Assembly (NCBI GenBank): GCA_001799195.1
Contig: MGSU01000333.1
Location: 1 to 25,109, forward strand
Length of the DNA: 25,109 nucleotides
Direction of reading: 5' to 3'
Source of the DNA: Deltaproteobacteria bacterium RIFOXYA12_FULL_61_11
GTDB taxonomy: Bacteria > Bdellovibrionota_F > JAHFAK01 > YA12-FULL-61-11
The position numbers and the translations under genes are program-made. Shown piece by piece: positions 1-20,375 of this stretch. Position 1 is the first letter of the stretch. Each line of letters opens with the position of its first letter. Under the pieces are notes generated by a model that made no database searches, had not been told where the DNA came from, and saw only the letters and a list, made by a program, of their open reading frames with translations.

Positions 1-40
1 CTCCTCGGTAGTGTGCTGGCCGCTCACGGCGGCCGATAGT
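1..40 (-). other. dsrA downstream spacer with hairpin and edge Shine-Dalgarno
   Basis: Read on the minus strand, the 40 bases after the dsrA stop contain a perfect 6-bp stem with a 5-nt loop (positions 18-34, GGCCGC/GCGGCC). They end in GAGGAG at positions 6-1. That is a strong ribosome binding site, so another gene should start just outside the window. In most known genomes dsrB follows dsrA directly, so dsrB is the expected gene, but it cannot be seen here. Confidence 0.6.
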
Positions 41-1228
41 TCAGGCTTCTTCGTCCTCGGTGGCGTACTCCTCGAAGAAGATGTACGGATTCTCGCGTGG
101 GTGCTTCACCATCTGCGGGATGGGCTCGAGACCGATTTCCTCGAGGAAATTGCCGAGACCAACGCGTTGGATGAACTCACCGACGCGCTCGCGGTTCTTG
201 CCGTGCTCGGACCAGATTTCCCAGATGTTCTCGATGAGCTCTTTCAATTCCGTATAGGGCGGTTCGAGCTTTATGAAGGGCACCAGGACCGAGGAGAGCA
301 AGGCGCCCTCGACAATCGGAGCCTTGGAGCCGAGGAGCAGCGTGGCGCCGCGATCGTCCCCAGGCCGCAGGGCCTTGGGCATGACGTTGATGCAGTGCAT
401 GCACTTGACGCAATTCTCGTCATCGACGCTGAAGGTTTTGCCATCCCAACTGATGCACTTGGTCGGGCAATTCATCATCACGTCCTGCGCGATATCCAGC
501 CCACCACCGACATACTTTTTGACCTCGGCCTGGTCGATCTTGATCTCATCGCGCCAGGTACCGATGATCGAGAGGTCGGCGCGGGCGATCGACGCTACGC
601 AGTCGTTCCCGCAACCCGCCATCTTGAACTTGAACTTGTAAGGGAAGGCGGGACGGTGCATCTCGTCCTGGAAGGTCTGGGTCAAGTCATAGGTCAGCGC
701 CAGGGTATCGTAACAGGCGAATTCGCACCGGGCCGGACCGCAGCAGCAGCTCGGGGTGCGCAGGGCAGAACCCGATCCGCCCAGATCGAAGCCGGCGGCG
801 GTCAGCTTGGCAAATGCGGGTTCGAGTTGGTCGGTCACCGTGCCGAGCAGCACGATGTCGCCGGTCGAACCGTGCATGTTGGTGATGCCTGAGCCGTGTT
901 CTTCCCAAATGTCACAGATTATGCGCAACGCTTTGGTATCGTAGAACCAACCTGCGGGCTGATTGACGCGAACGGTATGGAAATGGCTGACCCCGGAGAA
1001 CTTCTCGGGTAGGGCCGAGTAACGGCCGATCACGCCTCCGCCGTATCCCATGACGCCCACGATGCCGCCGTGCTTCCAGAAGCCGACGCGCTTCTCATAG
1101 GAGTATTCGAGCTGGCCGAGCAGGTCCTCTGCCATGGCCTTCTTCTCGCGCATTTTCTTGATCTCGGTGACGAAACTCGGGTACTTGCCCTTCTCGAGTT
1201 CGTCGAGTAACGGTGTCTTGTGCTTCAT
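41..1228 (-). CDS. dsrA: Dissimilatory sulfite reductase alpha subunit (DsrA)
   Basis: Alpha subunit of the siroheme sulfite reductase, which interconverts sulfite and the DsrC-bound sulfur of a trisulfide in the cytoplasm. The product is 395 aa, about the family length. The siroheme/[4Fe-4S] ligands are visible as C162-x5-C168 and C206-x3-C210. A ferredoxin-type insert follows with C254 and C273-x2-C276-x2-C279. The ATG at 1228 is preferred over one at 1243 because AAGGAG sits 6 nt before it. Motifs such as FHTVRV and [14 protein letters not shown] recall the reductive bacterial DsrA rather than the oxidative one; this judgement is from memory. It is the last complete gene of the apr-qmo-dsr block, 44 nt after dsrC. 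One oddity is three consecutive cysteines (C161-C163) at the cluster motif. Confidence 0.95.
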
Positions 1229-1272
1229 GTTTTTCTCCTTCATGCAACTGGCAACGTGTCAGTGGTTCTGGT

Positions 1273-1590
1273 TCAAACGCAACCCGTGGGTTTGGGCAAA
1301 CCGGCGAGCTTGCAGGCACCCTTGGCGGGTCCTGACGGGAACAGGTCATAGATCTCCTTGAGCTTGAACCCGCTCTCCTTGCAGAGCTTCCGGATCATGG
1401 GGGCGATCTGGAACTTGAGGTAGTAATCACGCAAGTAATTGATGACCTTCCAATGGTCCTCGGTCAAGCTCTCGATACCCTCGAGCTTGGCAAACCCCTT
1501 GGCCACGTCCTCGTTCCACTTGTCCGGTTCCTGCATGAAACCGTCCTCGTCGATCTGGTAGACCTGACCGTTGATCTCGATGTCCGCCAT
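1273..1590 (-). CDS. dsrC: DsrC sulfur-carrier protein
   Basis: Small cytoplasmic protein that is the physiological sulfur-carrying partner of DsrAB; the DsrC trisulfide is processed by the DsrMKJOP membrane complex. The product is 105 aa. It ends in the flexible arm that defines a true DsrC, with C93 and the penultimate C104 separated by ten residues. Both redox cysteines are present, which separates it from TusE and from RspA-like homologues that lack one. A clear GGAGGAAAACC ribosome binding site precedes the ATG. It lies between the OsmC-like gene and dsrA, so carrier and enzyme are probably co-transcribed. Many genomes instead keep dsrC as a separate unit or downstream of dsrAB. Confidence 0.95.
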   Translation of the reverse strand: MADIEINGQVYQIDEDGFMQEPDKWNEDVAKGFAKLEGIESLTEDHWKVINYLRDYYLKFQIAPMIRKLCKESGFKLKEIYDLFPSGPAKGACKLAGLPKPTGCV

Positions 1591-1659
1591 GGTTTTCCTC
1601 CTAGTGGCAGGTTGTGGGATCCTCTCTTCCTCTGTTCTCTCAATACGACTCGCGCCGTC

Positions 1660-2052
1660 TCACACGACGTCGAGGTCGATCTCCGGTTTTACGTCCAAGG
1701 TATTGTGCACCACACAGGAATGCACCGCGCGTTGCACTGCCTCCCGCCTGTCCTCGGGAAAACCCTCGGGTAGCGTCAGATCGGCGGTGATCGCTGCAAT
1801 ACGTTTCGGTTTGTCGGCGAGCTGGAAGGTCATATCGAGACCGATGCCTTCCGCCGGGTACTCATGGTTGACGCAATAGCGATTGACCAGCATGCCCATG
1901 CACGCGCCGAGAGCACCGACCAGCAACTCCGAGGGAGAAGGCGCGGCGTCGTTCCCGTGATCGGCGAGGGACATATCCGTCTCGAAGACGTGCCCGCGTA
2001 CGGTGACCCGGAAGTGCTGGCCGGCAAGCTGTTCGACCCTGATCAGATCCAT
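1660..2052 (-). CDS. OsmC-family thiol peroxidase-like protein
   Basis: A 130-aa OsmC/Ohr/YhfA-fold protein. Family members reduce hydroperoxides with a cysteine pair or act as less defined thiol proteins. The family pattern is visible: a P-S-P-S-E-L-L-V-G-A-L-G-A-C segment with C51, and HSCVVHNTL with C113, the two positions expected for the catalytic cysteines. An extra C60 is present. The ATG at 2052 lies 7 nt after the qmoC stop; a longer reading frame to 2115 would overlap qmoC and adds no family-like sequence. The tight spacing puts it in the qmo-dsr operon. Its role there is unknown: peroxide protection of Fe-S enzymes or handling of sulfane sulfur are both inferences. Confidence 0.85.
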   Translation of the reverse strand: MDLIRVEQLAGQHFRVTVRGHVFETDMSLADHGNDAAPSPSELLVGALGACMGMLVNRYCVNHEYPAEGIGLDMTFQLADKPKRIAAITADLTLPEGFPEDRREAVQRAVHSCVVHNTLDVKPEIDLDVV

Positions 2053-2059
2053 TGTCCCG

Positions 2060-3169
2060 TCAGAGCCTCCCGGTACGTCGAGCGTGGAACAGGGCCAGCG
2101 TGCGGTAGAGTACATGGGCGAACTTGCTGTACGGCAAGTACATCAACAGGTAGAAAACGGCCACGAGATGGATGAAATAGAGATAGTAGGCACTCTGGCT
2201 GTTGGCCATGCGGGTTACCTGGACCAACCCGCCGGTAACGGTCACGGTCAAGAGGATGCTGAGGAAAAGGAGATCCTGGTAAGTGCTCCGGCTGGTCTTC
2301 CCGGCCGTGGACAAACGCTCTTTCAGTAGGACATAACCTCCTGAGAGCAAGAGCACCATGCCCACATTGCCCAACAGCTTCCCGGGATGATAGAGCGGCA
2401 TTGGGTAATCGCCGCCCAAGAGAATGACCAGGATGGCCACGACCGTGGCCAGGAGCAAACAGATGAACCCCCAGAAAACCCCGAGATGGGCCAGGTAACG
2501 GTGATCATGGGCGGTACACTTGCTGAAACGGTCATGCGTAATGATCTCGTTCACGACCGGGAGGAGACTCTCGAACAATCCTCGCGGAGTGCCCGGAACC
2601 GGCCAGTTCCGTTGCAGGTCGCGCCAGAAACGCGAAGCACCGAGCAGAGCGAAGCCGCAGGTGGCGAGGAATACTAGGCTGAAGGAACCGTTCAACCAAG
2701 CGTGGGGGAAGAAATCGGCCAACCGGACGATCTCGCTCTTCGGCAGGGTGAGGGTTCCGGCAAGGGCGAGCACTGCAAGGATGAAGACCACCGGGATGGC
2801 GAGGGCCAACGGCAGGAACCGCGGCTCGGCCACCAACCGACCGAGGAAGCTCGGGACGGCATAATGCCGTATACTGACTTCGCGTATCGCCGCCAGGGTT
2901 TCGGCAGGATCTGCCCCCCGTGGACAATAGACCGAACAGTCCCCGCATTGATGGCACAACCAGATGTCAGGATCGCCGAGCAGGCGTTCGCGCTGGCCCC
3001 AGGATGCCCAGAGCATCTCTTTGCGCGGGAAGGGCCGGTGGTCCGGCGTGAGGGTGCAGACCGTGGAGCAGGTCGCGCACTGATAGCATTTCTTGAGGTT
3101 CTCGCCGCCGGCCTTCAGGAGTTCTGTAAGAAAAACCGGATCGACCGAGGTGGGCACATGCGCGCTCAT
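2060..3169 (-). CDS. qmoC: Quinone-interacting membrane-bound oxidoreductase subunit QmoC
   Basis: Membrane subunit of the Qmo complex, which passes electrons between the quinone pool and APS reductase. The product is 369 aa. Residues 1-90 are an HdrC-like ferredoxin domain with two clusters, C28-x2-C31-x2-C34-x3-C38 and C72-x2-C75-x2-C78-x3-C82. The rest is a cytochrome b/HdrE-like domain with about six hydrophobic helices starting near residue 115 and several helix-embedded histidines. The ATG at 3169 is chosen because GAGGAAAG, overlapping the qmoB stop, sits just upstream; a longer frame to 3277 would run into qmoB. The gene is 10 nt after qmoB, in the usual qmoABC order. Confidence 0.94.
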   Translation of the reverse strand: MSAHVPTSVDPVFLTELLKAGGENLKKCYQCATCSTVCTLTPDHRPFPRKEMLWASWGQRERLLGDPDIWLCHQCGDCSVYCPRGADPAETLAAIREVSIRHYAVPSFLGRLVAEPRFLPLALAIPVVFILAVLALAGTLTLPKSEIVRLADFFPHAWLNGSFSLVFLATCGFALLGASRFWRDLQRNWPVPGTPRGLFESLLPVVNEIITHDRFSKCTAHDHRYLAHLGVFWGFICLLLATVVAILVILLGGDYPMPLYHPGKLLGNVGMVLLLSGGYVLLKERLSTAGKTSRSTYQDLLFLSILLTVTVTGGLVQVTRMANSQSAYYLYFIHLVAVFYLLMYLPYSKFAHVLYRTLALFHARRTGRL

Positions 3170-3179
3170 CGAGCTTTCC

Positions 3180-5312
3180 TCACATCCCCTTGAATGGATT
3201 GGCACCCATGGCAACAATCTGTTCCGAGAACTCGTTGATGATAGCTGGTATACGTTCCCAGTCGCTGACTTCAACAAACTCGGTGCGGATCCGTTCGCTC
3301 TCGAGGGACATCTTGGTCAGGACTTCTTTGAGGTTCTCGCCGCGGGTCTGCATCAGCTCGCTGCCGCGGATGAAGTGGCACTGGTAGTCGTCGCCGGGCT
3401 TGCACCCGAGCTGGAGGATGCCGTCCCAGCCCTTGGACAGGGCGTCCTTGATCCAAACCGTGTTGACCGACCCCAGGCAACGTACCGGAATGATGCGGAC
3501 GAAGGCGCTGAGCTGAAGCTTGTGCTGGCCGGCCATGTCGATGGCCGGATAGGCGTCGTTCTCGCAGGCCAGGACCAGAATCCTGGGCTTCTCTTCGTCC
3601 TCCTCCGGCACTTCCAACTCTTTGATCATCGAGCCGATGGCATCGATGCTGTAGTTCTTGAAGCTGATGATCCGCTCGGGACAGGCACCCATGCAAATGC
3701 CGCAACGCCGGCAGCGAGCCGGATTGGGCTTCGGGGTCCCTTTTTCGTCCTCGTCGAACGCGCCGAAAGGACATTCCTCGGTGCAACGCTTACACGAAGT
3801 ACAGCGGGAGAGGTACAGTTCGGTATAACTCTTATCGCCCGAACGTGGATGCACGGCCTCGCCGCGGCTGGTCATCTCGAGACACTGGATGGCCTTCAAG
3901 GCCGCTCCTCGGGCATCGTCGATGCTGGCGGCCACGGTCATGGGGGCGCGTATTGCTCCGGCAGCGTAGATCCCGGTGCGTCGGGTCTCATAGGGGAAAC
4001 AGATGAAGTGGCTGTCCGGGAAATCATAGCGCAGGGTCGGCAGGGCTTCTCCCTGGCGATACTTGAGCTTGAGCACATCAGCCCCGTTCGGGACCAACCC
4101 CACGGCTAAGACGACCAGATCCACGGTAATGGCCAGATCGTCGTTGAGCAGGGTCTTGCCGACCTCGACCAGGAGCGCGCCGTTCTCCGACCTCACCGCC
4201 TGGACTTCTCCCTTGGTCAAGAAAAGGCGTTGATCGTCCTGCATTTCTCTGTAGAAACTCTCGGCCAACCCCGGAGTGCGCATGTCTTTATAGATGATGA
4301 AAGCATTGGCCTCCGGCCGCAACTCGCGCACATACCGGGCTTGCTTGAGCGTGGTACCGCAACAATAGGTGGAACAATAGGGTAGGTGCTCGGCATCCCG
4401 CGACCCCGCGCACTGGATGAACAGCACACTGTTGATCGGTTTGCCGTTGGAGGGCCGGACCAACGCGCCTTCTTTGGCCATCTGTTCGAATTGGTGGTTG
4501 GTGATTACGTCCGGGGAAGCACCATAGCCATATTGGGTGAGTTTGGCAGCATCATAGGGCTTGGCGCCGGTGGCCATGACAAAGGTCCCCACGGTCAGGG
4601 TGCGCTCCTGGCCGTTGGAAGAGAGGGTCACCCCGAAGTTACCCGGCTCACCGGTCACCTGGGTAATGACGGTATTGCACAAGACCTCGACGTTCGGTCG
4701 TTGGCCGAGTTGTTCGATCAAGGCGACCACCGCCGGGGTCTCGAGTTGCCGGAAGGGCGTGGCCATCGGCAATTGGCGGTAGAGGGTCTTCGACAGACCG
4801 CCGAGCGTCGACTCTTGTTCGATCAGAATGACCTCATAACCGGCACGGGAAGCCTCGAGCGCAGCGGTCACCCCGGTCACGCCCCCGCCGACCACCATGA
4901 GTTTAAAGCTGAAACTCTCGCTCTTGTACGGCACAGGGATCAAACTCTTGCGGGCCTTGACGATGCCCATGCGCAGGTAATCTTCGGCCAGCATCTGCGT
5001 ATCTTCGTCCTGGGGTTTGGAACACCAGGCAACTTGCTCGCGCAGGTTGACCCGCTCGACTAGGACATGTTCACCGAAGGCGAAGGCTTCAGGCTTCGCG
5101 CGCGGTGAACAGGCCGCGATCACCACACCGTCGATGCTCGCACCTGCGAGGTCTTGTTCGATCAGAGCCCGCCCCTCGGGGCTGCACAGCGCCTCGGCAC
5201 TCTTGCACGACGCCGCCTTCATCTCACCGCTCGCGACCTTTGCCAGGGCCGAAAGGTCGAGGCAGGCCGAGAGATCACAACCCTTACACAGATATACGCC
5301 GATCTTGTCCAC
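3180..5312 (-). CDS. qmoB: Quinone-interacting oxidoreductase subunit QmoB (HdrA-like with MvhD-like C-terminus)
   Basis: Flavin and Fe-S subunit of the Qmo complex in the cytoplasm. About 710 aa with the start used here. An N-terminal cysteine-rich segment (CKGCDLSAC) precedes an HdrA-like FAD domain with a G-x-G-x-x-G nucleotide motif near residue 142 and the Qmo/HdrA signature CAGSRDAEHLPYCSTYCC. Two [4Fe-4S] motifs follow (CTSCKRCTEECP and CRRCGICMGACP). The last ~150 residues look like the MvhD delta-subunit domain that QmoB is known to carry. Both candidate starts are GTG: 5312, with AGGTGG 5 nt upstream, is preferred over 5321. The gene is about 60 nt after qmoA. Confidence 0.94.
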   Translation of the reverse strand: MDKIGVYLCKGCDLSACLDLSALAKVASGEMKAASCKSAEALCSPEGRALIEQDLAGASIDGVVIAACSPRAKPEAFAFGEHVLVERVNLREQVAWCSKPQDEDTQMLAEDYLRMGIVKARKSLIPVPYKSESFSFKLMVVGGGVTGVTAALEASRAGYEVILIEQESTLGGLSKTLYRQLPMATPFRQLETPAVVALIEQLGQRPNVEVLCNTVITQVTGEPGNFGVTLSSNGQERTLTVGTFVMATGAKPYDAAKLTQYGYGASPDVITNHQFEQMAKEGALVRPSNGKPINSVLFIQCAGSRDAEHLPYCSTYCCGTTLKQARYVRELRPEANAFIIYKDMRTPGLAESFYREMQDDQRLFLTKGEVQAVRSENGALLVEVGKTLLNDDLAITVDLVVLAVGLVPNGADVLKLKYRQGEALPTLRYDFPDSHFICFPYETRRTGIYAAGAIRAPMTVAASIDDARGAALKAIQCLEMTSRGEAVHPRSGDKSYTELYLSRCTSCKRCTEECPFGAFDEDEKGTPKPNPARCRRCGICMGACPERIISFKNYSIDAIGSMIKELEVPEEDEEKPRILVLACENDAYPAIDMAGQHKLQLSAFVRIIPVRCLGSVNTVWIKDALSKGWDGILQLGCKPGDDYQCHFIRGSELMQTRGENLKEVLTKMSLESERIRTEFVEVSDWERIPAIINEFSEQIVAMGANPFKGM

Positions 5313-5372
5313 TGTTCCCACCTATGTCCAAAGCGTTCTCGTTGTCCAGGAACGAAGGCACGGCTCCCGTCT

Positions 5373-6602
5373 TCAGCCCTGGATCGCCTTGAGTGCCATA
5401 CCGGTCGCGTCCTTGAGGGCCGAGGAGACATCCAACGGCGCCTTGTCACAACCTGCGGCAAAGATTCCTTCTTCCACCGCTTCGGCGTTGAAGAAGCCGA
5501 ACTCGTCGACCACCACCTTGTCCAGGGCCGGCAAGTTGGGAGTCATACCGGTGGCCAGAACCACCATGCCGACCTTCTCCTTGCGCTTGAGCCCGGAGAG
5601 GATGTCCTCGGCCTCGACGACGAGGGAACCGCAGGGCTCCTCGTCGATACGGGCCACCTTACCCTTAATGAGTACGATGTTCTCATCGGCCTTGACCCGC
5701 GAGAGGACGTCCTCGTTGCGACCCATGGCCCGGAGATCTATGTAGAAGATGAAGGCCTTACCCTGGGGATTGCGTTCGCGATACTCGAGGGCATGCTTCA
5801 TCGAAGCCAGACAGCAGACCGTGGAGCAGTAGGGCAGGTGATTGTCGTCCCGGGACCCAGCACACTGCACGAACGCGATACTCTCGGGAGCCTTGGCGTC
5901 CGAGGGCCGCAGGATCAAACCCTGGTGGGGGCCATTGGCCGCCAAGAGGCGCTCCATCTGCACGTTGGTGATGACGTTGCGGTACGAACCGTACCGCAGG
6001 TTCTCGATCTTGGTCGCGTCGTAGGGGGTCCAGCCGGTAGCAAGGACCACACTGTGTACCTTCACCTCGAAGCGTTGGTCCTGCCGCGAGAAATCGATGG
6101 CCCGATAGGCACAGGCGTCGACGCACTTCTTGCATTCGAGCTTCATGCACACCGAGGTATCGATGGCATAACGATACGGGTAGGCCATCTCATGCGGCAA
6201 GTAGATCGCCTTGGTCGTGGTCAAACCGTAATTGAAGTCGTCGTCGCGGGTGACCGGACAGACCTCCACGCATGCGCCGCACGCGGTGCAACGGTCGTTG
6301 ACGTACTGGGGCTTCTGCAACAACTCGACCGTGTAGGCACCGCGGTCCCCGCGAATGGAGACGAGCTCGGTCGAGGTGTGGACCTGGACCCGCGGATTGT
6401 TCTTGATGCGCCGGAAATTGATCTCGAGCCCACAATAGGGGGGACAGAGCTTGGGGAAGTAACGGCCGAGCTGCGCGACCCGGCCACCGAGGTAGGGCAA
6501 CCGCTCGACCAAGACGACCTCGTGGCCGACTTCCGCCGCCTCGATCGCCGTGGTGATGCCGCTGATCCCAGCTCCGACAACCAGAATGGTCTTCTTGTCC
6601 AT
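5373..6602 (-). CDS. qmoA: Quinone-interacting oxidoreductase subunit QmoA (HdrA-like flavoprotein)
   Basis: Smaller HdrA-like flavoprotein of the Qmo complex, taken to contact APS reductase. The product is 409 aa. A Rossmann FAD motif (G10-x-G12-x-x-G15) opens the protein. There is a ferredoxin motif RCTACGACVEVCP, a second cysteine group CMKLECKKCVDAC, and the HdrA/QmoA signature CAGSRDDNHLPYCSTVCC. A second ATG-FAD-like segment (LATGMTPN) closes it. The ATG at 6602 directly precedes the Rossmann motif and has a purine-rich AGGAAGAAGAGAG upstream. A longer frame to 6818 reads through the end of the neighbouring gene and is a frame artefact. It lies 22 nt after the YkgJ-type gene. Confidence 0.95.
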   Translation of the reverse strand: MDKKTILVVGAGISGITTAIEAAEVGHEVVLVERLPYLGGRVAQLGRYFPKLCPPYCGLEINFRRIKNNPRVQVHTSTELVSIRGDRGAYTVELLQKPQYVNDRCTACGACVEVCPVTRDDDFNYGLTTTKAIYLPHEMAYPYRYAIDTSVCMKLECKKCVDACAYRAIDFSRQDQRFEVKVHSVVLATGWTPYDATKIENLRYGSYRNVITNVQMERLLAANGPHQGLILRPSDAKAPESIAFVQCAGSRDDNHLPYCSTVCCLASMKHALEYRERNPQGKAFIFYIDLRAMGRNEDVLSRVKADENIVLIKGKVARIDEEPCGSLVVEAEDILSGLKRKEKVGMVVLATGMTPNLPALDKVVVDEFGFFNAEAVEEGIFAAGCDKAPLDVSSALKDATGMALKAIQG

Positions 6603-6624
6603 GGTTCTCTCTTCTTCCTCGCGA

Positions 6625-7455
6625 TTAGGGTTGAACGTCCTTCCCTGTCTTCTTCCTGGACTTGGGGACATAGTTCGGATCGGGCTCGAGCAGGGGCTCG
6701 CCGCAGAGAGCGTGGCGTAACCAGGTCGAACCGAAGGAGAGCAGGGCTTCGTCGTCACGCCGCAATTGCTCCACCTGAGCGGGATCGAGGGCGAAACGCT
6801 GGAGGAAGCTGCTCTCAAAGATGAATTCGCGGAAGCGGTCGAGGTCGTAGGTCGCCAGGAAGAACTGCTGCATCTGGCGAGGTTCGAGTTCCTTGATCCG
6901 CTCGAAACCGGGATGGAAGATGACCGCTCTGAAAAGCGCGCCCATATCGTCGTAGCGCGTCACTTCCTGGTCGTGCAGCCACTCCCGGATGGTCTGTTCC
7001 TTGGGATCGCGGTGTCCGAGGCAATCGCCTTCCTCGAGCTTGAAATAGAACGACCGGCCGGTTTGCTCATTGTTGGGGTGAGCTTCGCCGATAGGATAGA
7101 TGCGGCAAGCCCAAGGCCGATCTTTATACACCCCACACCCCTGCGCGGTGACAAAGGGGCAGGTCTTGGCGTCTCCTTCCATTTTCAGCACCACCACCGG
7201 GTATTTCTGGCCTTTCTCGATGGGTAGGATGGTGTGCCGTTCGATGAAATCGTCGGAACGCATCCCGAGGGCATTTTTGAGCCTCAGGACGTCATAGGGA
7301 GTAAGGAATATATTCACGTCCCTGCAACACTGGTTGAAGCAGGGAATGTCTTTGTGGCAACGGAAACCCAACCGGTCGTCCGGCCCGAGGCGTTCGTGGT
7401 CCTTGATGATGGTTTCCTTGAGACGTTGGAGGTTGGTCCTGGCGTCGTTGTCCAT
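6625..7455 (-). CDS. YkgJ-type cysteine-cluster protein in the apr-qmo operon
   Basis: A 276-aa protein of the YkgJ / putative Fe- or Zn-chelating family (CxxxC...CC type). The N-terminal half holds the family cysteines C33, C39, C43-C44, C99, C107 and C117, in the pattern CHKDIPCFNQCC and then CPF...GCGVYKDRPWACRIYP. The C-terminal ~150 residues are charged, probably helical, and not recognised as any domain. The start ATG overlaps the stop of the zinc-ribbon gene by one base (TGATG), which suggests translational coupling. It sits between aprBA and qmoABC, so it is likely an assembly or coupling factor for Fe-S/flavin enzymes. This is inference, since family members have no well-defined biochemical role. 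Confidence 0.85.
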   Translation of the reverse strand: MDNDARTNLQRLKETIIKDHERLGPDDRLGFRCHKDIPCFNQCCRDVNIFLTPYDVLRLKNALGMRSDDFIERHTILPIEKGQKYPVVVLKMEGDAKTCPFVTAQGCGVYKDRPWACRIYPIGEAHPNNEQTGRSFYFKLEEGDCLGHRDPKEQTIREWLHDQEVTRYDDMGALFRAVIFHPGFERIKELEPRQMQQFFLATYDLDRFREFIFESSFLQRFALDPAQVEQLRRDDEALLSFGSTWLRHALCGEPLLEPDPNYVPKSRKKTGKDVQP

Positions 7456-7718
7456 CACCCCTCGATGCCGTCCCGGAAATCGACGGCGGTCTTGACCCTG
7501 AGCGGCATGGTCTGACCCGACTGGGGGTCGAGCATGTGCCGGTACGAGGCCTTGGTCTTGTAGTGTTCTTCGATGAAGGCCCAACCCCGCACGTAGTACC
7601 CGCACTCGTCGTTGAAACAGACGTAGCGGAGTTCATCGTACTGCAAGTCGGGGTAGGTCCAGCGACACATCGGCTGACCGCAGTGCGGACAGTTGGTATC
7701 GATGCTCGGCTGGGTCAT
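7455..7718 (-). CDS. Small zinc-ribbon protein downstream of aprA
   Basis: An 87-aa protein with a four-cysteine zinc-ribbon knuckle: NCPHCGQPMC near residues 10-18, then CFNDECGYYVRGW near residues 34-45. It resembles Ogr/Delta-like or transcription-factor-type ribbons. The start is ATG with AGAGGTGACC upstream. It follows the strong hairpin after aprA and its stop overlaps the start of the YkgJ-type gene, so the two probably act together. Candidate roles are a metal-site assembly factor, a small AprA-Qmo adaptor, or a nucleic-acid-binding regulator. Nothing in the sequence decides between them. Confidence 0.8.
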   Translation of the reverse strand: MTQPSIDTNCPHCGQPMCRWTYPDLQYDELRYVCFNDECGYYVRGWAFIEEHYKTKASYRHMLDPQSGQTMPLRVKTAVDFRDGIEG

Positions 7719-7740
7719 GGGGTCACCTCTGAGATGGGAT

Positions 7741-7776
7741 CGAGGAGGAGGACACCGCGGGGTGTCCTCCTCCTCG
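7741..7776 (-). promoter_or_regulatory. Strong intercistronic hairpin between aprA and zinc-ribbon gene
   Basis: A perfect 16-bp inverted repeat with a 4-nt loop. The arms are 7741-7756 and 7761-7776, each made of GAGGAGGAGGACACC-type sequence plus one closing C-G pair. It lies 24 nt after the aprA stop and no U-tract follows. It therefore looks like an RNA-processing, 3'-end-stabilising or partial-termination element rather than a standard intrinsic terminator. Confidence 0.8.
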
Positions 7777-7799
7777 CAAGGGGTCGAGAGTGCGCGATG

Positions 7800-9674
7800 T
7801 CAGACCATGCGGTGGATTTCCTTCTTCATGGTCTTCCATTCGCCGGTCTTGGGAACGTAGGTGATGTTGGCGAAGCAGTTCCAGTCGTCCTTCATGCTCG
7901 GACAGTCGCTGCGGAAGTAGTAACCGGGCCACCTGGTCTCTTCGCGGAAGAGGATGGTGCGGACATGGGACTCGGCCTGCCAAGTGCGGTGGTAATTTTC
8001 CCAACTGCGCATCAGCTCGTGCAGGTCCTTGGCCGCGAGCTTCTCGGCGTCTTCTTTGAGCAGGGCGAGCAGCTCGAGAGCGCGCTCGAGATTGGCCTTG
8101 GAGGTCTTGAAGCCGTAGACCACGCCGCCGGCGTACTCGTCCATCAACTTCTGCAGGCGCACGATATAGCCGCGCGGCCGGATGTAGTTGGGGTTGATGT
8201 CCGGGTCGGTGCTGTAGCCCTTGAACTCCTCGAAACGGTTGATCGGAGCCAGGATCTTCGTCTTGAGGGCGTTGAGATCCGCTTCGGGCTGCATGAGAGT
8301 CGCGTTGTCCATAGCGAAGGCGGCCATGGCTTTGGCGGCGATGCGGCCCTCGGTGAAGGAGCCGGAGGAGAACTTGTGGCTGGAGGCGCCGGAGGCGTCA
8401 CCTGCCGCGAACAAGCCCTTCACCGTGGTCATGTTCGGGTAGCCCCACTTGTACGGGGTGTTCAGGTCCTCGGGTCCGCTGACCCACGCACCTGAACCAC
8501 CGGAGTGCGAGCCGATGAAGTACGGTTCGCAGGCCGCGATCTCGGACTTCTTCTCTTCGGGCTGCACGTTGAGCGATGCCCACATGTGGGCCTGGCTGAT
8601 GGTCATGTCGAGGAAGTCTTCCCAGGCTTCGCTCTCGAGTTCCTTCATCTTCTTCTTGAAGGCCTTCTGGTCGTCCTTGTAGGTCTCGGCGATCTTCTGG
8701 ATGGCCAACTCGGTGCGCATGTAAATGGGCTGCTTACCCTCGAACACGTCGAGCATCATGAGCCAGTTGCGCAGGTTCGCGGGCACCGGCTTGACCTTGC
8801 CGTAGGGGCCCCACTTCTCGAGCTCGGAGGCGCGGGTCTGCATGTAGTTCTCGTCGTTGGCGTTGGTCGCGATCGACTTGAACAGCAGGAACCAAGCCCC
8901 GACCGGACCGTAGGCGTCCTTGAAGCGGACCGGGATGAAACGGATCTCTTGGCAGGTCATCTCGGCGCCGGCCTTGAGGGTGAAATAAGCGCTGGAACCG
9001 GAGTTGAACGGCGGATACCAAGTGCGCCCGGCGCCTTCGCCCGAGCTGCGCGGCTTGAAGACGTGCACGGCGCCACCCATGCATGCGAGCACGGACTTTG
9101 CCTTGAAGACATAGTACTTGTTCTCGCGCACGCTGAAGCCCACGGCCCCTACGCAGCGATCGCCGTTCATGAGCGGCTCGACGATATAGACGCGTTCGTA
9201 GATCTGCCCGTTGGCGCCGAGCTCGGCCAGGGCGTTCTTGGCCGCTTCGGCCACGATCACCTTGTAGCTCTCGCCGTTGATCATGAGCTGCCAGCGTCCC
9301 TCGTGGACATAGGCACCCTTCTCGTCCTTCCAGATCGGCAGGCCCCATTTCTCGTAGAGATGGACGGTGCCGTCGACGTGGCGGGCGATGTTGGCGACGA
9401 GGTCGTCACGGGCCACACCCATGAGGTCGTTCTTCACATAGTTGACGTAGTCCTTGAGGGTGTTCTCGCCGTCCTTGAGGCCGACGTACTGGTTGATCGC
9501 CGAAAGACCCATGGCCACGGCACCGCTGCGGTCCATGGAGGCCTTGTCGACCAAGGTTACCTTGAGATTGTGCTTCTTTGCCCAGTGGGCGGCTTCGACC
9601 GCCGCACCGCAAGCGGCCATACCGCCGCCGAGGATGAGGATGTCGGTAGTGACTTCGATGGTCTGGAAATCCAT
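7800..9674 (-). CDS. aprA: Adenylylsulfate (APS) reductase alpha subunit (AprA)
   Basis: FAD-containing catalytic subunit of APS reductase, interconverting APS and sulfite plus AMP in the cytoplasm. The product is 624 aa, close to the known family length. The fumarate-reductase-type FAD motif is at residues 16-23 (GGGMAACG). The substrate-site segments FIPVRFKDAYGPVGAW (R250) and IGSHSGGSGAW (H390) match the positions of the catalytic Arg and His described for the Archaeoglobus enzyme. GDASGASSHKFSSGSFTEGR further marks the flavoprotein fold. AAGGAGG stands before the ATG. The gene is 27 nt after aprB, in the usual aprBA order. No AprM-like membrane protein is present; qmoABC downstream supplies the electron link. 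Confidence 0.97.
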   Translation of the reverse strand: MDFQTIEVTTDILILGGGMAACGAAVEAAHWAKKHNLKVTLVDKASMDRSGAVAMGLSAINQYVGLKDGENTLKDYVNYVKNDLMGVARDDLVANIARHVDGTVHLYEKWGLPIWKDEKGAYVHEGRWQLMINGESYKVIVAEAAKNALAELGANGQIYERVYIVEPLMNGDRCVGAVGFSVRENKYYVFKAKSVLACMGGAVHVFKPRSSGEGAGRTWYPPFNSGSSAYFTLKAGAEMTCQEIRFIPVRFKDAYGPVGAWFLLFKSIATNANDENYMQTRASELEKWGPYGKVKPVPANLRNWLMMLDVFEGKQPIYMRTELAIQKIAETYKDDQKAFKKKMKELESEAWEDFLDMTISQAHMWASLNVQPEEKKSEIAACEPYFIGSHSGGSGAWVSGPEDLNTPYKWGYPNMTTVKGLFAAGDASGASSHKFSSGSFTEGRIAAKAMAAFAMDNATLMQPEADLNALKTKILAPINRFEEFKGYSTDPDINPNYIRPRGYIVRLQKLMDEYAGGVVYGFKTSKANLERALELLALLKEDAEKLAAKDLHELMRSWENYHRTWQAESHVRTILFREETRWPGYYFRSDCPSMKDDWNCFANITYVPKTGEWKTMKKEIHRMV

Positions 9675-9701
9675 TAGTTCCTCCTTACGCTTCGAGTTCG
9701 A

Positions 9702-10139
9702 TCACAGCTTGTGCAGTTCCTTGAGTCCCAGCGAAGCGGGCTCGGTGAACAGCAACGGGCTCTTGAGGTCGGCGGTCGCGGTCGCGAAATCGCCGTGCGG
9801 CTTGGCGCTACCCTCGGGAGTAGTCCGGATGGGGAACTTGAAGCGCTTGATCGACCCGTTGCGGAACTTGACCGTCCACATGATGTCCTCGGAGCCGCGC
9901 AACGGGATGACCGACGCGCCTAGGGGCATGAAGTCGGAATAGCCGCGGACCTCGATCGCGTTCTGCGGGCATACCTTGGCGCAGCACTGGCACTCCCAAC
10001 AGGTGTCGGGTTCCTGGTTGTACGCCTTCATGATGTCCCGGTTAAGGGTCATCAAGTCGTTCGGGCATGCGTGTTGGCATGCCGTCTTGTCCTGGGCCTT
10101 GCATCCATCACACTTTTCAGCAATGACGAAAGTGGGCAT
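9702..10139 (-). CDS. aprB: Adenylylsulfate (APS) reductase beta subunit (AprB)
   Basis: Ferredoxin-like electron-transfer subunit of APS reductase, 145 aa. Two [4Fe-4S] clusters are indicated by C10-x2-C13-x7-C21-x3-C25 and C47-x2-C50-x2-C53-x3-C57, with an extra C52. The C-terminal tail (residues ~100-145) is the part known to wrap around AprA in solved structures. GAGGACC precedes the ATG. It is the first gene of the apr-qmo-dsr block, about 190 nt downstream of the PAS-LuxR gene. A sigma-54-like promoter and a leader hairpin lie in that gap. Confidence 0.96.
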   Translation of the reverse strand: MPTFVIAEKCDGCKAQDKTACQHACPNDLMTLNRDIMKAYNQEPDTCWECQCCAKVCPQNAIEVRGYSDFMPLGASVIPLRGSEDIMWTVKFRNGSIKRFKFPIRTTPEGSAKPHGDFATATADLKSPLLFTEPASLGLKELHKL

Positions 10140-10315: not shown

Positions 10316-10336
10316 ATAGGTACAAATAATACCTAT
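10316..10336. promoter_or_regulatory. Perfect palindrome upstream of aprB, candidate activator site
   Basis: ATAGGTA-N7-TACCTAT is a perfect 7+7 bp inverted repeat in an AT-rich island of GC-rich DNA. It overlaps the stop codon of the PAS-LuxR gene. Its centre is about 63 bp upstream of the transcription start predicted from the sigma-54-like element. No U-tract follows on the minus strand, so a regulator-binding site is more likely than a terminator. Confidence 0.45.
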
Positions 10337-11709
10337 TTTCTGGAGACTTCTTGGACCCGCGAGGTTTTCTCCTGACCGCGACGTTGTAACTGCTGGCGCT
10401 GGAGGTACCGCGACAGGGACTCCCCCTGGCTGGTCAATCCGAGCTTCTGGCGTATGCGTTTGCGATAGACATTCACCGTCCCCGGGGAGAGCCGCATCAG
10501 GGCGGCGATTTCCTTACTGCTCATGCCGCGGGCCACGAGATTGCAGACCTCGATCTCGCGCGGAGCCAGGACCGCGTACAAGGTCGTCTGGGTATCCTCG
10601 GGGAAGTCGATGATCTCGAGCAGGTTGTTCCGGATCACTGCCAGGTAGTCGCGTTCGATGGAAGTAGCAATCACCTCGAGGCGGTCGATGACCGGCAGCA
10701 CGGTGCGGCGCACGGCGCTGGAGAGCTGCAGGGTGAATTCTTTCCGATCGTGTTCGATCTGTCCGAGGATCTCTTTGAGGGCAATGTTCTTCTCGTTGAG
10801 CGCAGCCTTCTCCATGGTCAGGAGTTCGGTCAGTTCGATGAGCTTGACCTGGGTTTGCTTGTAGTTGGTAATATCGCGCAGAATGGCGCTGAAGTACCGT
10901 TCGTCTCCCGAACGCCAAGCCACGATGGACAACTCCATCGGGAACTCTTCCCCTCCCTTGCGCAGACCTTCGACCTCCAGGTCCTTCTCCGACTCCACCG
11001 TGCTCCCATGCGCGAAGAGGCGCGCGAAGCGTTCGGCATGGACCTCGAAGTAGCGAGGAGAGATCAGCTCTTGGATAGGATGCCCGAGGATCTCCTCGGC
11101 GAGGTAACGGAATACGGCCTCCGCACCCTTGTTCCACGACAACAGCCTACCACTCTCGTCGGCCAGGAGGATGGCGCTGTTGGAGAGTTGGGCAATGGCC
11201 TCGTAACTGGTCTCGAGTTGGTGCAATTTCTCTCGGACCCAGGTCTTCTCGGTGACATCTCGCAGTACCCGGACCAGGAACTCGGGCCGATCATCGAGGC
11301 CCTTGACGCTCTCGAGGTTGAGTTCGGCGGTGAAGCAGGTACCGTCTCCGCGGCGCAGGGTATACTCTGCCTGGAGGTGCCGAGAGGTTCGGATCAGTTC
11401 GGGCAAGGAGCGTTCGAAGGACAGGTCCTCGGACGAAATGAGGTCCGAGAACTCCACCCCCCCCCGTTCGATGGCCTCCGCGACCGTCCTCCCGAGCAAA
11501 GACAAGGCGTGCTCGTTGGCTGCCACGATAATACCGCGGAGATCGGTCAACACCACCGGTTCCGGGAGGTGCCGGATCAGGGTCTCGAGCCGATAACGGC
11601 GATCCCCGAGCTCCTTCTCGAGCACCTCGACCGCTGCAAGGCGCTGCTCAAGCGCGGTCCTTTCCTCGGGGTCCAATCTGTCGAGGGCTTTTTCGATCAG
11701 CACCTGCAC
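10333..11709 (-). CDS. PAS-PAS-LuxR-type transcriptional regulator
   Basis: A 458-aa soluble protein with two PAS domains: residues ~45-160 ending VRVLRDVTEK, and ~165-285 ending SAILRDITNYKQ, the usual PAC ends. A coiled-coil-like linker (~285-335) and a C-terminal LuxR/GerE helix-turn-helix (~375-440, LAPREIEVCNLVARGMSSKEIAALM then TVNVYRKRIRQKLG) follow. There is no receiver and no histidine kinase domain, so it may sense a ligand or redox state directly through the PAS domains. The start is GTG at 11709; an in-frame stop lies shortly upstream and the ribosome site is weak. It is co-oriented with and directly upstream of aprBA, so control of that operon is likely. The ligand is unknown. 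Confidence 0.88.
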   Translation of the reverse strand: MQVLIEKALDRLDPEERTALEQRLAAVEVLEKELGDRRYRLETLIRHLPEPVVLTDLRGIIVAANEHALSLLGRTVAEAIERGGVEFSDLISSEDLSFERSLPELIRTSRHLQAEYTLRRGDGTCFTAELNLESVKGLDDRPEFLVRVLRDVTEKTWVREKLHQLETSYEAIAQLSNSAILLADESGRLLSWNKGAEAVFRYLAEEILGHPIQELISPRYFEVHAERFARLFAHGSTVESEKDLEVEGLRKGGEEFPMELSIVAWRSGDERYFSAILRDITNYKQTQVKLIELTELLTMEKAALNEKNIALKEILGQIEHDRKEFTLQLSSAVRRTVLPVIDRLEVIATSIERDYLAVIRNNLLEIIDFPEDTQTTLYAVLAPREIEVCNLVARGMSSKEIAALMRLSPGTVNVYRKRIRQKLGLTSQGESLSRYLQRQQLQRRGQEKTSRVQEVSRK

Positions 11710-11826
11710 CCCGTCACCGTCATCGCCGAAGTCCTATCCTGCCGACCCTACTCCGGACCCTGGCAGGCAGCAAGCGCGAAGTGGCCACAGGGTTGTTTGA
11801 GCCCAGGTACAAAGAAGAACGAGGTT

Positions 11827-13173
11827 TCAGTCCCCCCAGTTCCCACCGTCCATCTCGTATTTGCTGATTTTGTTACACAGGCTCTGGCGAGTCATCTTGA
11901 GGATGGTGGCAGCCTTGCGTTTGCTGCCGCCGGACTGTTGCAGGGCAAAGCGGATGAGGCGTTGTTCGTAGTCGGAGACCAGACCGTAGAAGTCCCCACC
12001 GCGCAAGGGGTCGTCTCCCTCGCTCTCGACGACCGTCGGCTCGATGCGGCCAGAGCGCTTGATGGTCAGGTGTCTCGCCCCGATGGTGTCGGTATCGGTG
12101 ATGGCCACGGCGCGTTCTATCTCGTGCTCCAACTCGCGCACGTTACCCGGCCAGTGGTAATCCATGAAGGCTTGGATGACCTCGGGTTCGAGCACGATGT
12201 CCTTCTCGAGTTTCCGACCGAAGAAGCGGGCGAAGTGGTTGGCTAGGAGGGGAATGTCCACCAGGCGATCTCGCAGCGGCGCGATGTGGATGTTGATGAC
12301 ATTGATCCGATAGTAGAGGTCTTCGCGGAAATTGCCCTTCTCGACCTCTGCTTTGAGGTTGCGATTTGTGGCGAAGATCATCTGGACATCGACGTTGATG
12401 CTCTTGGTGCCGCCGACCTTGCGGAAGGTTCCACCCTCGATAACCCTGAGCAGCTTGGTCTGCATGTCCTTGTTGAGATCCCCGATCTCATCGAGGACCA
12501 AGATGCCCTTGTCGGCGATTTCGAATAGCCCGGGTTTGTCCAGGGTCGCACCCGTGAAGGAACCCTTGACGTGACCGAAGAGCTCTGCCTCGAGGATGCT
12601 CTGGGTGATCGCGGCGCAGTTCTCAATGACGAAGGGGCGATCCTTGCGCCGGCCGCAAGCATGAATAGCCCGTGAAACCAGTTCCTTGCCCGTACCGCTC
12701 TCGCCCGTGACCAAGATGGTGCTGTCGGTCCTGGCAACCTTGAGGATCAGGGTGATCATCTCGTGGATCTTCTTGCTCCGTCCGACGATGCCGCAGAAGG
12801 CGTCGAGCGCGCCCCGGTGGCGGTCGATGATGGAGACCAGCTCCTCGATGTTGATCGGTTTATTCACGAAGCCGTGGACGTGGCTATGGTTGATGGCTTT
12901 CTTCAACACCGCGGTGTCGGCGAAACCGGAGATGATCACCCGAAGGACCTCGGGGCGTCGACGTTGGCATTGCTCAAGGAATTCGACTCCCGACATCCCC
13001 GGCATGCGTTCGTCCGAAAGTACCACCTGGATGGGTTCGGCCTGCAGAAGCTCCAGGCCTTCTTCGGCGCTGTAGGCCTTGTACACAGTATATTTTCCGC
13101 GAAGTTGGCGTTCCAGGGCCTTGACCACGGGAATCTCGTCATCGACTATGAGCAGGTTGATCGGTGCGTCCAT
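11827..13173 (-). CDS. NtrC-family sigma-54-dependent response regulator
   Basis: A 448-aa three-domain activator. The receiver domain (1-120) has D11-D12, phospho-acceptor D54 (LSDERMPG), S82 and K105. The AAA+ domain (~130-370) has Walker A G157ESGTGKE, the sigma-54 contact loop G204SFTGA (GAFTGA with Ser in place of Ala) and Walker B LVLDE with D228-E229. The C-terminal Fis-type helix-turn-helix is SKRKAATILKMTRQSLCNKISKYEM. All residues for phosphorylation, ATP hydrolysis and sigma-54 contact are visible. No cognate histidine kinase lies in the window. It is followed after ~117 nt by the PAS-LuxR gene and then by the apr-qmo-dsr block, whose leader carries a sigma-54-like promoter. Confidence 0.95.
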   Translation of the reverse strand: MDAPINLLIVDDEIPVVKALERQLRGKYTVYKAYSAEEGLELLQAEPIQVVLSDERMPGMSGVEFLEQCQRRRPEVLRVIISGFADTAVLKKAINHSHVHGFVNKPINIEELVSIIDRHRGALDAFCGIVGRSKKIHEMITLILKVARTDSTILVTGESGTGKELVSRAIHACGRRKDRPFVIENCAAITQSILEAELFGHVKGSFTGATLDKPGLFEIADKGILVLDEIGDLNKDMQTKLLRVIEGGTFRKVGGTKSINVDVQMIFATNRNLKAEVEKGNFREDLYYRINVINIHIAPLRDRLVDIPLLANHFARFFGRKLEKDIVLEPEVIQAFMDYHWPGNVRELEHEIERAVAITDTDTIGARHLTIKRSGRIEPTVVESEGDDPLRGGDFYGLVSDYEQRLIRFALQQSGGSKRKAATILKMTRQSLCNKISKYEMDGGNWGD

Positions 13174-18731: not shown

Positions 18732-18795
18732 CCAGCATACTCACCTTTGAGTTCAGGTGCTCTGCGATCCAACGGAGCGACCAAGGGAAGATCCG

Positions 18796-20256
18796 ATGAA
18801 GATCTTGTTGCTCAGCGGTGCCGATTCCGACAAGCGCACCCGATATGGGGATTATTCCCTGGTCGGTCCTCGACTCCAACCGTACAACCTGATGCAACTC
18901 ACGGCCTTGCTGGAAAGGGATGGACATATCGTGCATCTCTTGGACACCGAAGTCGAACCCCAGACTCTCCCGGAAACCTTCGAACTCGTTGGTCGCCTCC
19001 ACCCGGACCTCTTGGGTGTCAGCGTCTACACCATCAACCACGCCTACATCACCGCGCTCCTGGAAGGAGTACGCTCGAGGTACCCCAAGCTCCCGGTGGT
19101 CCTGGGCGGTCCCCACATGACGATCTATCCCGCGGCCTTCGTGGAACGAGGACTTGCGGATTACGGAGTGGCCGGCGAGGCCGACCTCGTTTTCCCGGAA
19201 CTGGTTTCGGCCCTGGAACGGGGCTCCTCGGTACACGAGCTCGCGAACGTGACGACCCTACGCGAAGGCAAGGTCGTCACCAATCCCACACGTCCTTTCA
19301 TCGACGACCTCGATGCCCTGCCGTTCCCTGCCTTCCACCTGCTGGGAAAGAATCTCGGCAAGTACTGGCCCCAACCAATGACCTACCGACGCAAGCCGAT
19401 GACCATCGTTGTCACCAGCAGGGGGTGCCCTTACGATTGCTCGTTCTGCCCCGCTGCGGGCATCTGGGCAGGGCGGCGCTGGCGCGCCCAATCCGCAGAA
19501 TACGTTGGCAATCTCATGGAATGGCTCTCCAAGGACTACGGAATCCGGGAGATATGCTTCAATGAAAACACCTTCGCCCTGGATCGACACAGGGTTGAGG
19601 GTATCTGTAACTTCATCTTGAAGAAACGTCTCAACATTCTCTGGTCGGGCAATGTGAACGCACGCCATCTCCATGCGGACCTGCTGGCCCTCATGCACCG
19701 AGCGGGATGCTGGTTGCTCTCGATCGGGATTGAGACCGGCGATGCCGGCATCATGTCCTCCATCAATAAACCTCTCGACCTCGCCCAGGCGGAGGAGAAG
19801 ATCAAGCTTGTGGTCAGCAAGGGCATCAAGGTCAGGGGTTACTTCATCGTGGGGCACCAGGAAGAGACCGAGGCCTCCGTGCGGAAGACGATCGCCCTGG
19901 CGAAGCGGCTCCCTCTCTATACGGCCAATTTCTCCATCTTCGTACCCGTGCCGGGCTCACGAGATTTTACCAATATTTACGGTGAGGTAGCGGAGCACGC
20001 TATCGGAGACCTCTCGAACTACGCCAACCTCGGGTGCGGCTCACGCTACCAACCCGCGCACCTCTCGGGCCAACGGGTGATCGACCTGCAACGCCGTGCC
20101 ATGTTCGAATTCTTCCTCCGTCCCAGCCAGGTGGGGAGACTCGTACGGTCTATAGAGACCTTCGAGGACTTCCGGCGCTTTGCGTACATGGGCCTCGCGG
20201 GCACCAATATCGTCGGCCGCAGCCTGCTGAGGAAAGTACGCAACCCGACTGCCTAG
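18796..20256 (+). CDS. B12-binding-domain radical SAM protein
   Basis: A 486-aa protein with an N-terminal cobalamin-binding-like Rossmann domain (residues ~1-145: MKILLLSGAD, LLGVSVYTI, VVLGGPHMTIYP, and the GEAD stretch at ~127-130). It is followed by a radical SAM core with C211-x3-C215-x2-C218. The order matches the BchE/HpnJ-type class, which methylates, rearranges or cyclises lipids, peptides and antibiotics. Later family blocks are GIETGDAGIMSSINKP and GYFIVGHQEETEASVRKTI. The start at 18796 has GGGAAG upstream and the B12 domain begins at once; a start at 18757 is possible. The substrate is unknown. It converges on a second radical SAM gene, so the two may act in one pathway. Confidence 0.9.
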   Translation: MKILLLSGADSDKRTRYGDYSLVGPRLQPYNLMQLTALLERDGHIVHLLDTEVEPQTLPETFELVGRLHPDLLGVSVYTINHAYITALLEGVRSRYPKLPVVLGGPHMTIYPAAFVERGLADYGVAGEADLVFPELVSALERGSSVHELANVTTLREGKVVTNPTRPFIDDLDALPFPAFHLLGKNLGKYWPQPMTYRRKPMTIVVTSRGCPYDCSFCPAAGIWAGRRWRAQSAEYVGNLMEWLSKDYGIREICFNENTFALDRHRVEGICNFILKKRLNILWSGNVNARHLHADLLALMHRAGCWLLSIGIETGDAGIMSSINKPLDLAQAEEKIKLVVSKGIKVRGYFIVGHQEETEASVRKTIALAKRLPLYTANFSIFVPVPGSRDFTNIYGEVAEHAIGDLSNYANLGCGSRYQPAHLSGQRVIDLQRRAMFEFFLRPSQVGRLVRSIETFEDFRRFAYMGLAGTNIVGRSLLRKVRNPTA

Positions 20257-20375
20257 GGGCCGGCTTAGCCTGACAACCTCCTAGCAACGCTGAGGCCACC
20301 CTTCCGCATCGATCATCGATCTTCCCGGGAACAGGCTTGGCGCACGCTCGAACCAACCCCCCGGAGGATTGAAGA

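Follow-up and report, generated by a model that had tools for sequence, protein, structure and literature searches.

In peat Acidobacteria the sulfur genes are confined to few scaffolds (a single one in SbA2), where conserved genes of unknown function lie between them and dsrAB is followed downstream by a dsrC-dsrL pair (Hausmann 2018, PMC6018796). The metagenome-assembled genomes (MAGs) of Candidatus Thermonerobacter thiotrophicus have the order sat-aprBA-hyp-hyp-qmoC, then dsrAB-dsrD-dsrN-hyp-dsrL-dsrC (Thiel 2019, PMC6338057), and a passage in the report on Desulfobacterium autotrophicum (PMC2702500) sets the scattered genes of cultured reducers against the clustered ones on DNA from uncultured prokaryotes, with reference to Mussmann 2005. 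Here we describe an apr-qmo-dsr gene block in a stretch of 25,109 nucleotides (nt), referred to as the window, which is one whole contig (C333) of the 4.64-Mb MAG of Deltaproteobacteria bacterium RIFOXYA12_FULL_61_11 (342 contigs, 87% complete). We are reasonably confident that the block is a sulfate-respiration locus of an ordinary kind, probably reductive, and of the merged type present in Acidobacteria and other uncultured lineages, and that it is probably expressed as a graded series in which the aprBA mRNA is set apart by a hairpin.

The block occupies positions 41-10139 on the minus strand, and in transcription order reads aprB, aprA, znr, ykgJ-like, qmoA, qmoB, qmoC, osmC, dsrC and dsrA, with successive gaps of 27, 81, -1, 22, 60, 10, 7, 69 and 44 nt, the start of the ykgJ-like gene overlapping the znr stop. 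The genes are as follows (lengths in amino acids, aa; APS, adenosine 5'-phosphosulfate).

9702..10139, minus strand: aprB, APS reductase beta subunit, 145 aa (TIGR02060, 202 bits, cut-off 136)
7800..9674, minus strand: aprA, APS reductase alpha subunit, 624 aa (TIGR02061, 855 bits, cut-off 642)
7455..7718, minus strand: znr, apr-linked Ogr_Delta-like zinc-ribbon protein, 87 aa (Pfam PF04606, 32.6 bits)
6625..7455, minus strand: ykgJ-like, CxxCxxCC (metal-binding) protein, 276 aa (Pfam PF03692, 35.2 bits)
5373..6602, minus strand: qmoA, HdrA-like flavoprotein, 409 aa (HdrA2 model, 374 bits, under the model's own cut-off)
3180..5312, minus strand: qmoB, HdrA-like with a C-terminal FlpD domain, 710 aa (PF02662, 134 bits; position and identity in relatives)
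2060..3169, minus strand: qmoC, membrane subunit, 369 aa (NF038018, 400 bits, cut-off 300)
1660..2052, minus strand: osmC-like protein, 130 aa (PF02566, 51.8 bits)
1273..1590, minus strand: dsrC, 105 aa (TIGR03342, 125.5 bits, cut-off 53.5)
41..1228, minus strand: dsrA, dissimilatory sulfite reductase alpha subunit, 395 aa (TIGR02064, 574 bits, cut-off 393)

AprB, AprA, QmoC, DsrC and DsrA exceed the curated NCBIfam cut-offs, with AprA also matching PDB 1jnr/2fja (E 1e-229) and DsrA matching PDB 3mm5 (E 2e-162); QmoA and QmoB are assigned by their likeness to HdrA, their position and their identity in relatives, QmoA being 45-60% identical to the qmoA products of relatives. DsrC retains both C-terminal cysteines (at its GACKLAGLPKPTGCV end), as a functional DsrC does. 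A preliminary description of this DNA had named seven genes, aprBA, qmoABC, dsrC and dsrA, all of which lie exactly where it placed them, co-oriented on the minus strand with gaps of -1 to 81 nt, although the znr, ykgJ-like and osmC genes inside the block went unnamed.

The dsrA gene ends 40 nt short of the contig edge, and the first 13 nt of the window (1..13, minus strand) are the same as the last 13 nt of contig C98 (locus L003). The join reads dsrA - GAGGAGGT - ATG of dsrB, completing a Shine-Dalgarno sequence and the dsrB start, and beyond it C98 carries on the same strand dsrB (TIGR02066, 512 bits), an 83-aa dsrD-like open reading frame (ORF), dsrL-2 and dsrN; it also contains sat on the other strand and, further on, dsrT-M-K-J. 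On the basis of 13 exact bases and a restored gene order, not of reads, C98 appears to continue the window cluster. The genes of the pathway, namely sat, aprBA, qmoABC, dsrAB, dsrC and dsrMK, are all present in this one genome. The C98 'orf412', at first counted as a gene of that contig, is the antisense of sat and was rejected.

To place the block among its relatives, we scanned named genomes for AprA, giving 41 loci, and searched for aprA in samples of genomes from four phyla, with genomes above the cut-off in Acidobacteriota (18/297), Desulfobacterota (117/297), Zixibacteria (44/132) and Myxococcota (6/235). The aprA surroundings were inspected at 15, 60, 34 and 5 loci of these phyla, respectively, which with the 41 named loci makes 155. 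At 23 of the 155, dsrA lies downstream of aprA on the same strand at a distance of 0.25-6.4 kb (6/15 in Acidobacteriota, 5/60 in Desulfobacterota, 4/34 in Zixibacteria, 0/5 in Myxococcota and 8/41 among the named loci), counts that are lower bounds because many contigs end early, and that include a few named and fetched loci from the same genome. The phyla represented are Acidobacteriota, Myxococcota, Zixibacteria, Ignavibacteria, Poribacteria and Desulfobacterota. The order aprBA-znr-ykgJ-qmoABC-dsrA on one strand is found in Acidobacteria (L007, L008, L015, L040 and L041, where L040 is the published SbA3 locus of PMC6018796), in a genome of Myxococcota that is catalogued under Deltaproteobacteria (L028) and in Poribacteria (L044), and in the Ignavibacteria locus (L025) qmoAB are placed in front. 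The window locus belongs with these, its aprBA, qmo and dsrAB genes all facing one way in a span of about 12 kb. It also has the znr and ykgJ-type pair, found directly behind aprA in 14/15 Acidobacteriota loci, 29/34 Zixibacteria loci and 0/60 Desulfobacterota loci; the two 'hyp' genes of PMC6338057 seem to be the counterparts of this pair, and the zinc-ribbon and CxxCxxCC proteins could help to assemble the iron-sulfur clusters of Apr or Qmo. In two acidobacterial genomes (L163 and L164; G238:C64 and G179:C35) the region upstream of the apr-qmo block holds a second qmo set and a dsrJ-like match.

The merged arrangement, which the preliminary description took to be new, is thus a kind of cluster already described, since the same order recurs in several phyla and in the literature (PMC6018796, PMC6338057). 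Its contrast with classical sulfate reducers does hold, as merging is uncommon in Desulfobacterota (the 5/60 loci are not a random sample, because loci were picked for long contigs), in agreement with the passage in PMC2702500. What the window adds is a poorly sampled phylum, represented by two genomes in the set compared, to the bacteria in which the genes of sulfate respiration are kept as one block.

The position of dsrC is the point at which the window departs from its relatives. None of the 23 other merged loci has dsrC directly before dsrA, and in the merged-locus set it usually follows dsrL; the downstream dsrC-dsrL pair characteristic of the acidobacterial members is not found in the window genome, where dsrL follows dsrB without dsrC. 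The position has nevertheless been published, both as the order dsrNCABLEFHTMKJOP of the Chlorobiaceae (green sulfur bacteria; PMC8232776) and as dsrNCABL in some uncultured Deltaproteobacteria and Verrucomicrobiales (PMC7596348). The local order qmoC-osmC-dsrC-dsrA was seen nowhere else among the inspected loci. Its parts do recur, with an osmC-like gene adjoining dsrC in L112 (1584-1973) and L120 (1699-2079) and following qmoC in the acidobacterial L046 (412-804), and because L046 holds an independent qmoC-osmC pair, a chimeric assembly at this junction is disfavoured. The placement of osmC-dsrC before dsrA is the one local difference of the window from described clusters, and it is conceivable that the OsmC-like protein is linked to DsrC persulfide chemistry or to thiol protection.

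A second feature of the block lies in the gap behind aprA.

7741..7776, minus strand: perfect 16-bp stem with a 4-nt loop, CGAGGAGGAGGACACC-CCGC-GGTGTCCTCCTCCTCG, 23 nt after the aprA stop

This hairpin has a minimum free energy of -42.1 kcal/mol (z -5.2; 0/200 shuffles), and occurs as a single copy in the genome. An Rfam scan gave no match. The first 80 nt after the stop codon of each cluster gene were compared across all loci, using a threshold of z < -3. Structures this stable follow aprA in 115/151 loci (mean z -4.0), and in 17/24 of the merged clusters, as compared with 26/104 for qmoC, 16/103 for qmoB, 11/81 for sat, 1/145 for aprB, 0/105 for qmoA and 1/24 for dsrA; aprB and qmoA run almost straight into coding sequence, so that qmoC, which often stands before intergenic DNA, is the fairest control, and it stays far below aprA. 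Perfect stems of at least 9 bp follow aprA in 78/151 loci (39 with a T4 tail), compared to 1% of shuffled copies. The stems differ in sequence between lineages, and therefore it is the position and not the sequence that is conserved. No paper treating hairpins or terminators between aprA and qmoA was found in the literature. We tentatively suggest, as a possibility that we hold a little short of even, that sulfate-respiring bacteria in general have a control element in the form of a stem-loop directly behind aprA, conserved in position and divergent in sequence. By terminating transcription in part or by protecting the 3' end, it would separate the aprBA mRNA from qmo (and from dsr in merged clusters) and so set how much APS reductase is made relative to the complex that donates electrons to it; here it would act inside an otherwise operon-like cluster.

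The hairpin bears directly on the proposal that one polycistronic transcript ties APS reductase to its electron supply and to sulfite reductase in a fixed ratio, and that the merger is a new arrangement. Co-orientation and short gaps speak for a single transcript, as does a terminator scan that found no consensus terminator with a T-tract at any junction from aprB to dsrA. Set against this are the 16-bp stem itself, at exactly the junction between aprA and qmoA where the preliminary description had said that a transcript end would separate the units, the stable structures at the same place in most loci, and the prior occurrence of the arrangement in the survey and in print. The strong hairpin argues against an even transcript across the block, a single transcript is somewhat doubtful, and we regard the fixed-ratio proposal as unlikely. 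Because the aprA hairpin recurs across phyla, a shared transcript should not be deduced from gene order by itself. A sigma-70 scan found no coding-strand promoter before aprB, with fewer matches than in shuffles. The predicted ribosome sites are also uneven, with energies of -12.2 (aprB), -12.1 (aprA), -10.2 (dsrC), -8.8 (dsrA) and -13.1 kcal/mol (dsrB) and weak values of -5.9 to -7.1 kcal/mol for znr, ykgJ and qmoABC, a pattern that fits graded output.

The direction in which the pathway runs was considered from DsrL, the dsrD-like gene and DsrAB. Reverse operation, in which sulfide or sulfur would be oxidised to sulfate via DsrAB/DsrL, AprBA-Qmo and Sat, has been proposed for organisms with dsrL and was left open for related acidobacteria by Hausmann 2018 (PMC6018796); the presence of DsrL favours it, as does dsrC before dsrA, which resembles the Chlorobiaceae dsrNCABLEFH (PMC8232776). 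However, the DsrL has in its NADP-binding site (LGADVRIMYRRTIAEM) the YRR motif of NADP(H)-dependent DsrL-2, the type accompanying reductive DsrAB (PMC7596348), and dsrB is followed after 6 nt by the dsrD-like ORF (83 aa; L003:11107-11358, C98), a member of a family found behind dsrB in ten clusters with a mean column identity of 71%. In a tree of 21 concatenated DsrAB sequences that of the window falls with Zixibacteria and Ignavibacteria (support 94/95, just under the starred level), within a grouping with clusters of these phyla and the acidobacteria, and its nearest identity is 74%, to a Zixibacteria DsrAB. The ORFs examined on the two contigs included no dsrEFH genes, no genome-wide search having been made. 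Taken together, we infer that reduction is the likelier direction, and reverse operation seems rather improbable. An early finding that DsrD was absent from the genome (the PF08679 search was empty and its control silent) was dropped after the dsrD-like ORF had been found by hand; DsrD was reported in Acidobacteria by Hausmann 2018 (PMC6018796), and gene surveys relying on PF08679 would miss the family described here.

A further explanation is that the block is foreign to its bin, as a misbinned contig, or was recently transferred. The only other genome of the phylum compared (G001, of the same class) is without aprA and dsrA, and the window DsrAB groups with those of other phyla, both of which would fit a foreign origin, although two genomes are too few to judge a phylum by. 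The CysS encoded on the window contig is 49% identical to that of G001 and 51-53% to those of acidobacteria, and so is about as close to one as to the other, as expected of a deep lineage. Nor does any recent donor stand out, because full-length AprA identity reaches about 75% at most; an 82% AprA match to SbA3 (L040) was rejected as a sign of recent transfer because that gene is broken and the match covers its first piece only, the second piece being 60% identical. A foreign or newly acquired block seems unlikely. A cluster of this kind in a poorly sampled phylum bears on how the pathway has moved between lineages.

In the reductive, graded reading that we favour, Sat and AprBA would activate sulfate and then reduce it to sulfite, QmoABC would connect APS reductase with the quinone pool, sulfite would be reduced by DsrAB together with DsrC and an NADP(H) partner of the DsrL-2 type, and DsrMKJ(OP) would handle the DsrC trisulfide. 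The transcript structure and expression levels we infer are those of a highly expressed aprBA unit, whose mRNA would end, be processed or be protected at the aprA hairpin, followed by znr-ykgJ-qmoABC at a lower level in keeping with their weak ribosome sites, and finally by osmC-dsrC-dsrAB-dsrD-dsrL-dsrN, in which ribosome sites are good once more at dsrC, dsrA and dsrB. Several observations weigh against this reading. First, direction is not readable from gene content alone, and DsrL-2 is found in oxidizers and reducers alike (PMC7596348). Secondly, the dsrD-like protein does not match the Pfam DsrD model PF08679 and matches the canonical DsrD profile weakly (18.8% probability), and searches of the PDB with it gave chance-level matches alone. 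Thirdly, the window hairpin has a stem without a T-run and is therefore not a standard intrinsic terminator, and transcription could read through into qmo across the short gaps that follow it. Lastly, the weak qmo ribosome sites are peculiar to the window genome; because the qmoB sites of the survey are as strong as those of aprB, the graded pattern is no general rule.

Upstream of aprB, on the same strand, are a sigma-54 response regulator and a PAS-LuxR regulator (window 10333-13173).

10333..11709, minus strand: PAS-LuxR regulator, directly upstream of aprB with a 193-nt gap

None of the genes near the apr loci in the first-compared named genomes was found to encode a close relative of this PAS-LuxR protein. 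Near the far end of the contig a gene for a B12-binding radical SAM protein faces that for a second, long radical SAM protein (window 18757-22460).

Several known systems resemble the window cluster in part. The Chlorobiaceae clusters (PMC8232776) share dsrC directly before dsrA and dsrL after dsrB, but are of the oxidative type with DsrEFH, and apr-qmo lies outside the cluster as described. Two Desulfobacterota contigs additional to the 23 loci, G583:C46 (L161 and L112) and G410:C33 (L162 and L120), carry nearly the whole pathway, as dsrAB-dsrN-dsrC-osmC-dsrTMKJ-aprBA-ykgJ-qmoABC, on one strand over about 22 kb, with sat after qmoC in the G583 block; they are similar to the window in their one-strand layout and in osmC adjoining dsrC, and differ in that dsr precedes apr, DsrD is canonical and no dsrL was found. 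The environmental fragments of Mussmann 2005, as cited in the passage of PMC2702500 and compared by that citation, not by gene order, likewise have sulfate-respiration genes clustered on one fragment. The Thermonerobacter MAGs (PMC6338057) have sat, apr and qmoC genes and then dsrAB, an order matched by Ignavibacteria L025, but their qmoAB are elsewhere and dsrC is at the far end, and in the window genome sat is not beside aprB. In the peatland Acidobacteria SbA1-SbA7 (PMC6018796) dsrC is paired with dsrL after dsrAB, whereas in the window it stands before dsrA and behind osmC; with these genomes the window shares aprBA-znr-ykgJ-qmoABC-dsrAB-dsrL on one strand, a DsrL-2 with reductive DsrAB, and the presence of dsrN and dsrMKJ.

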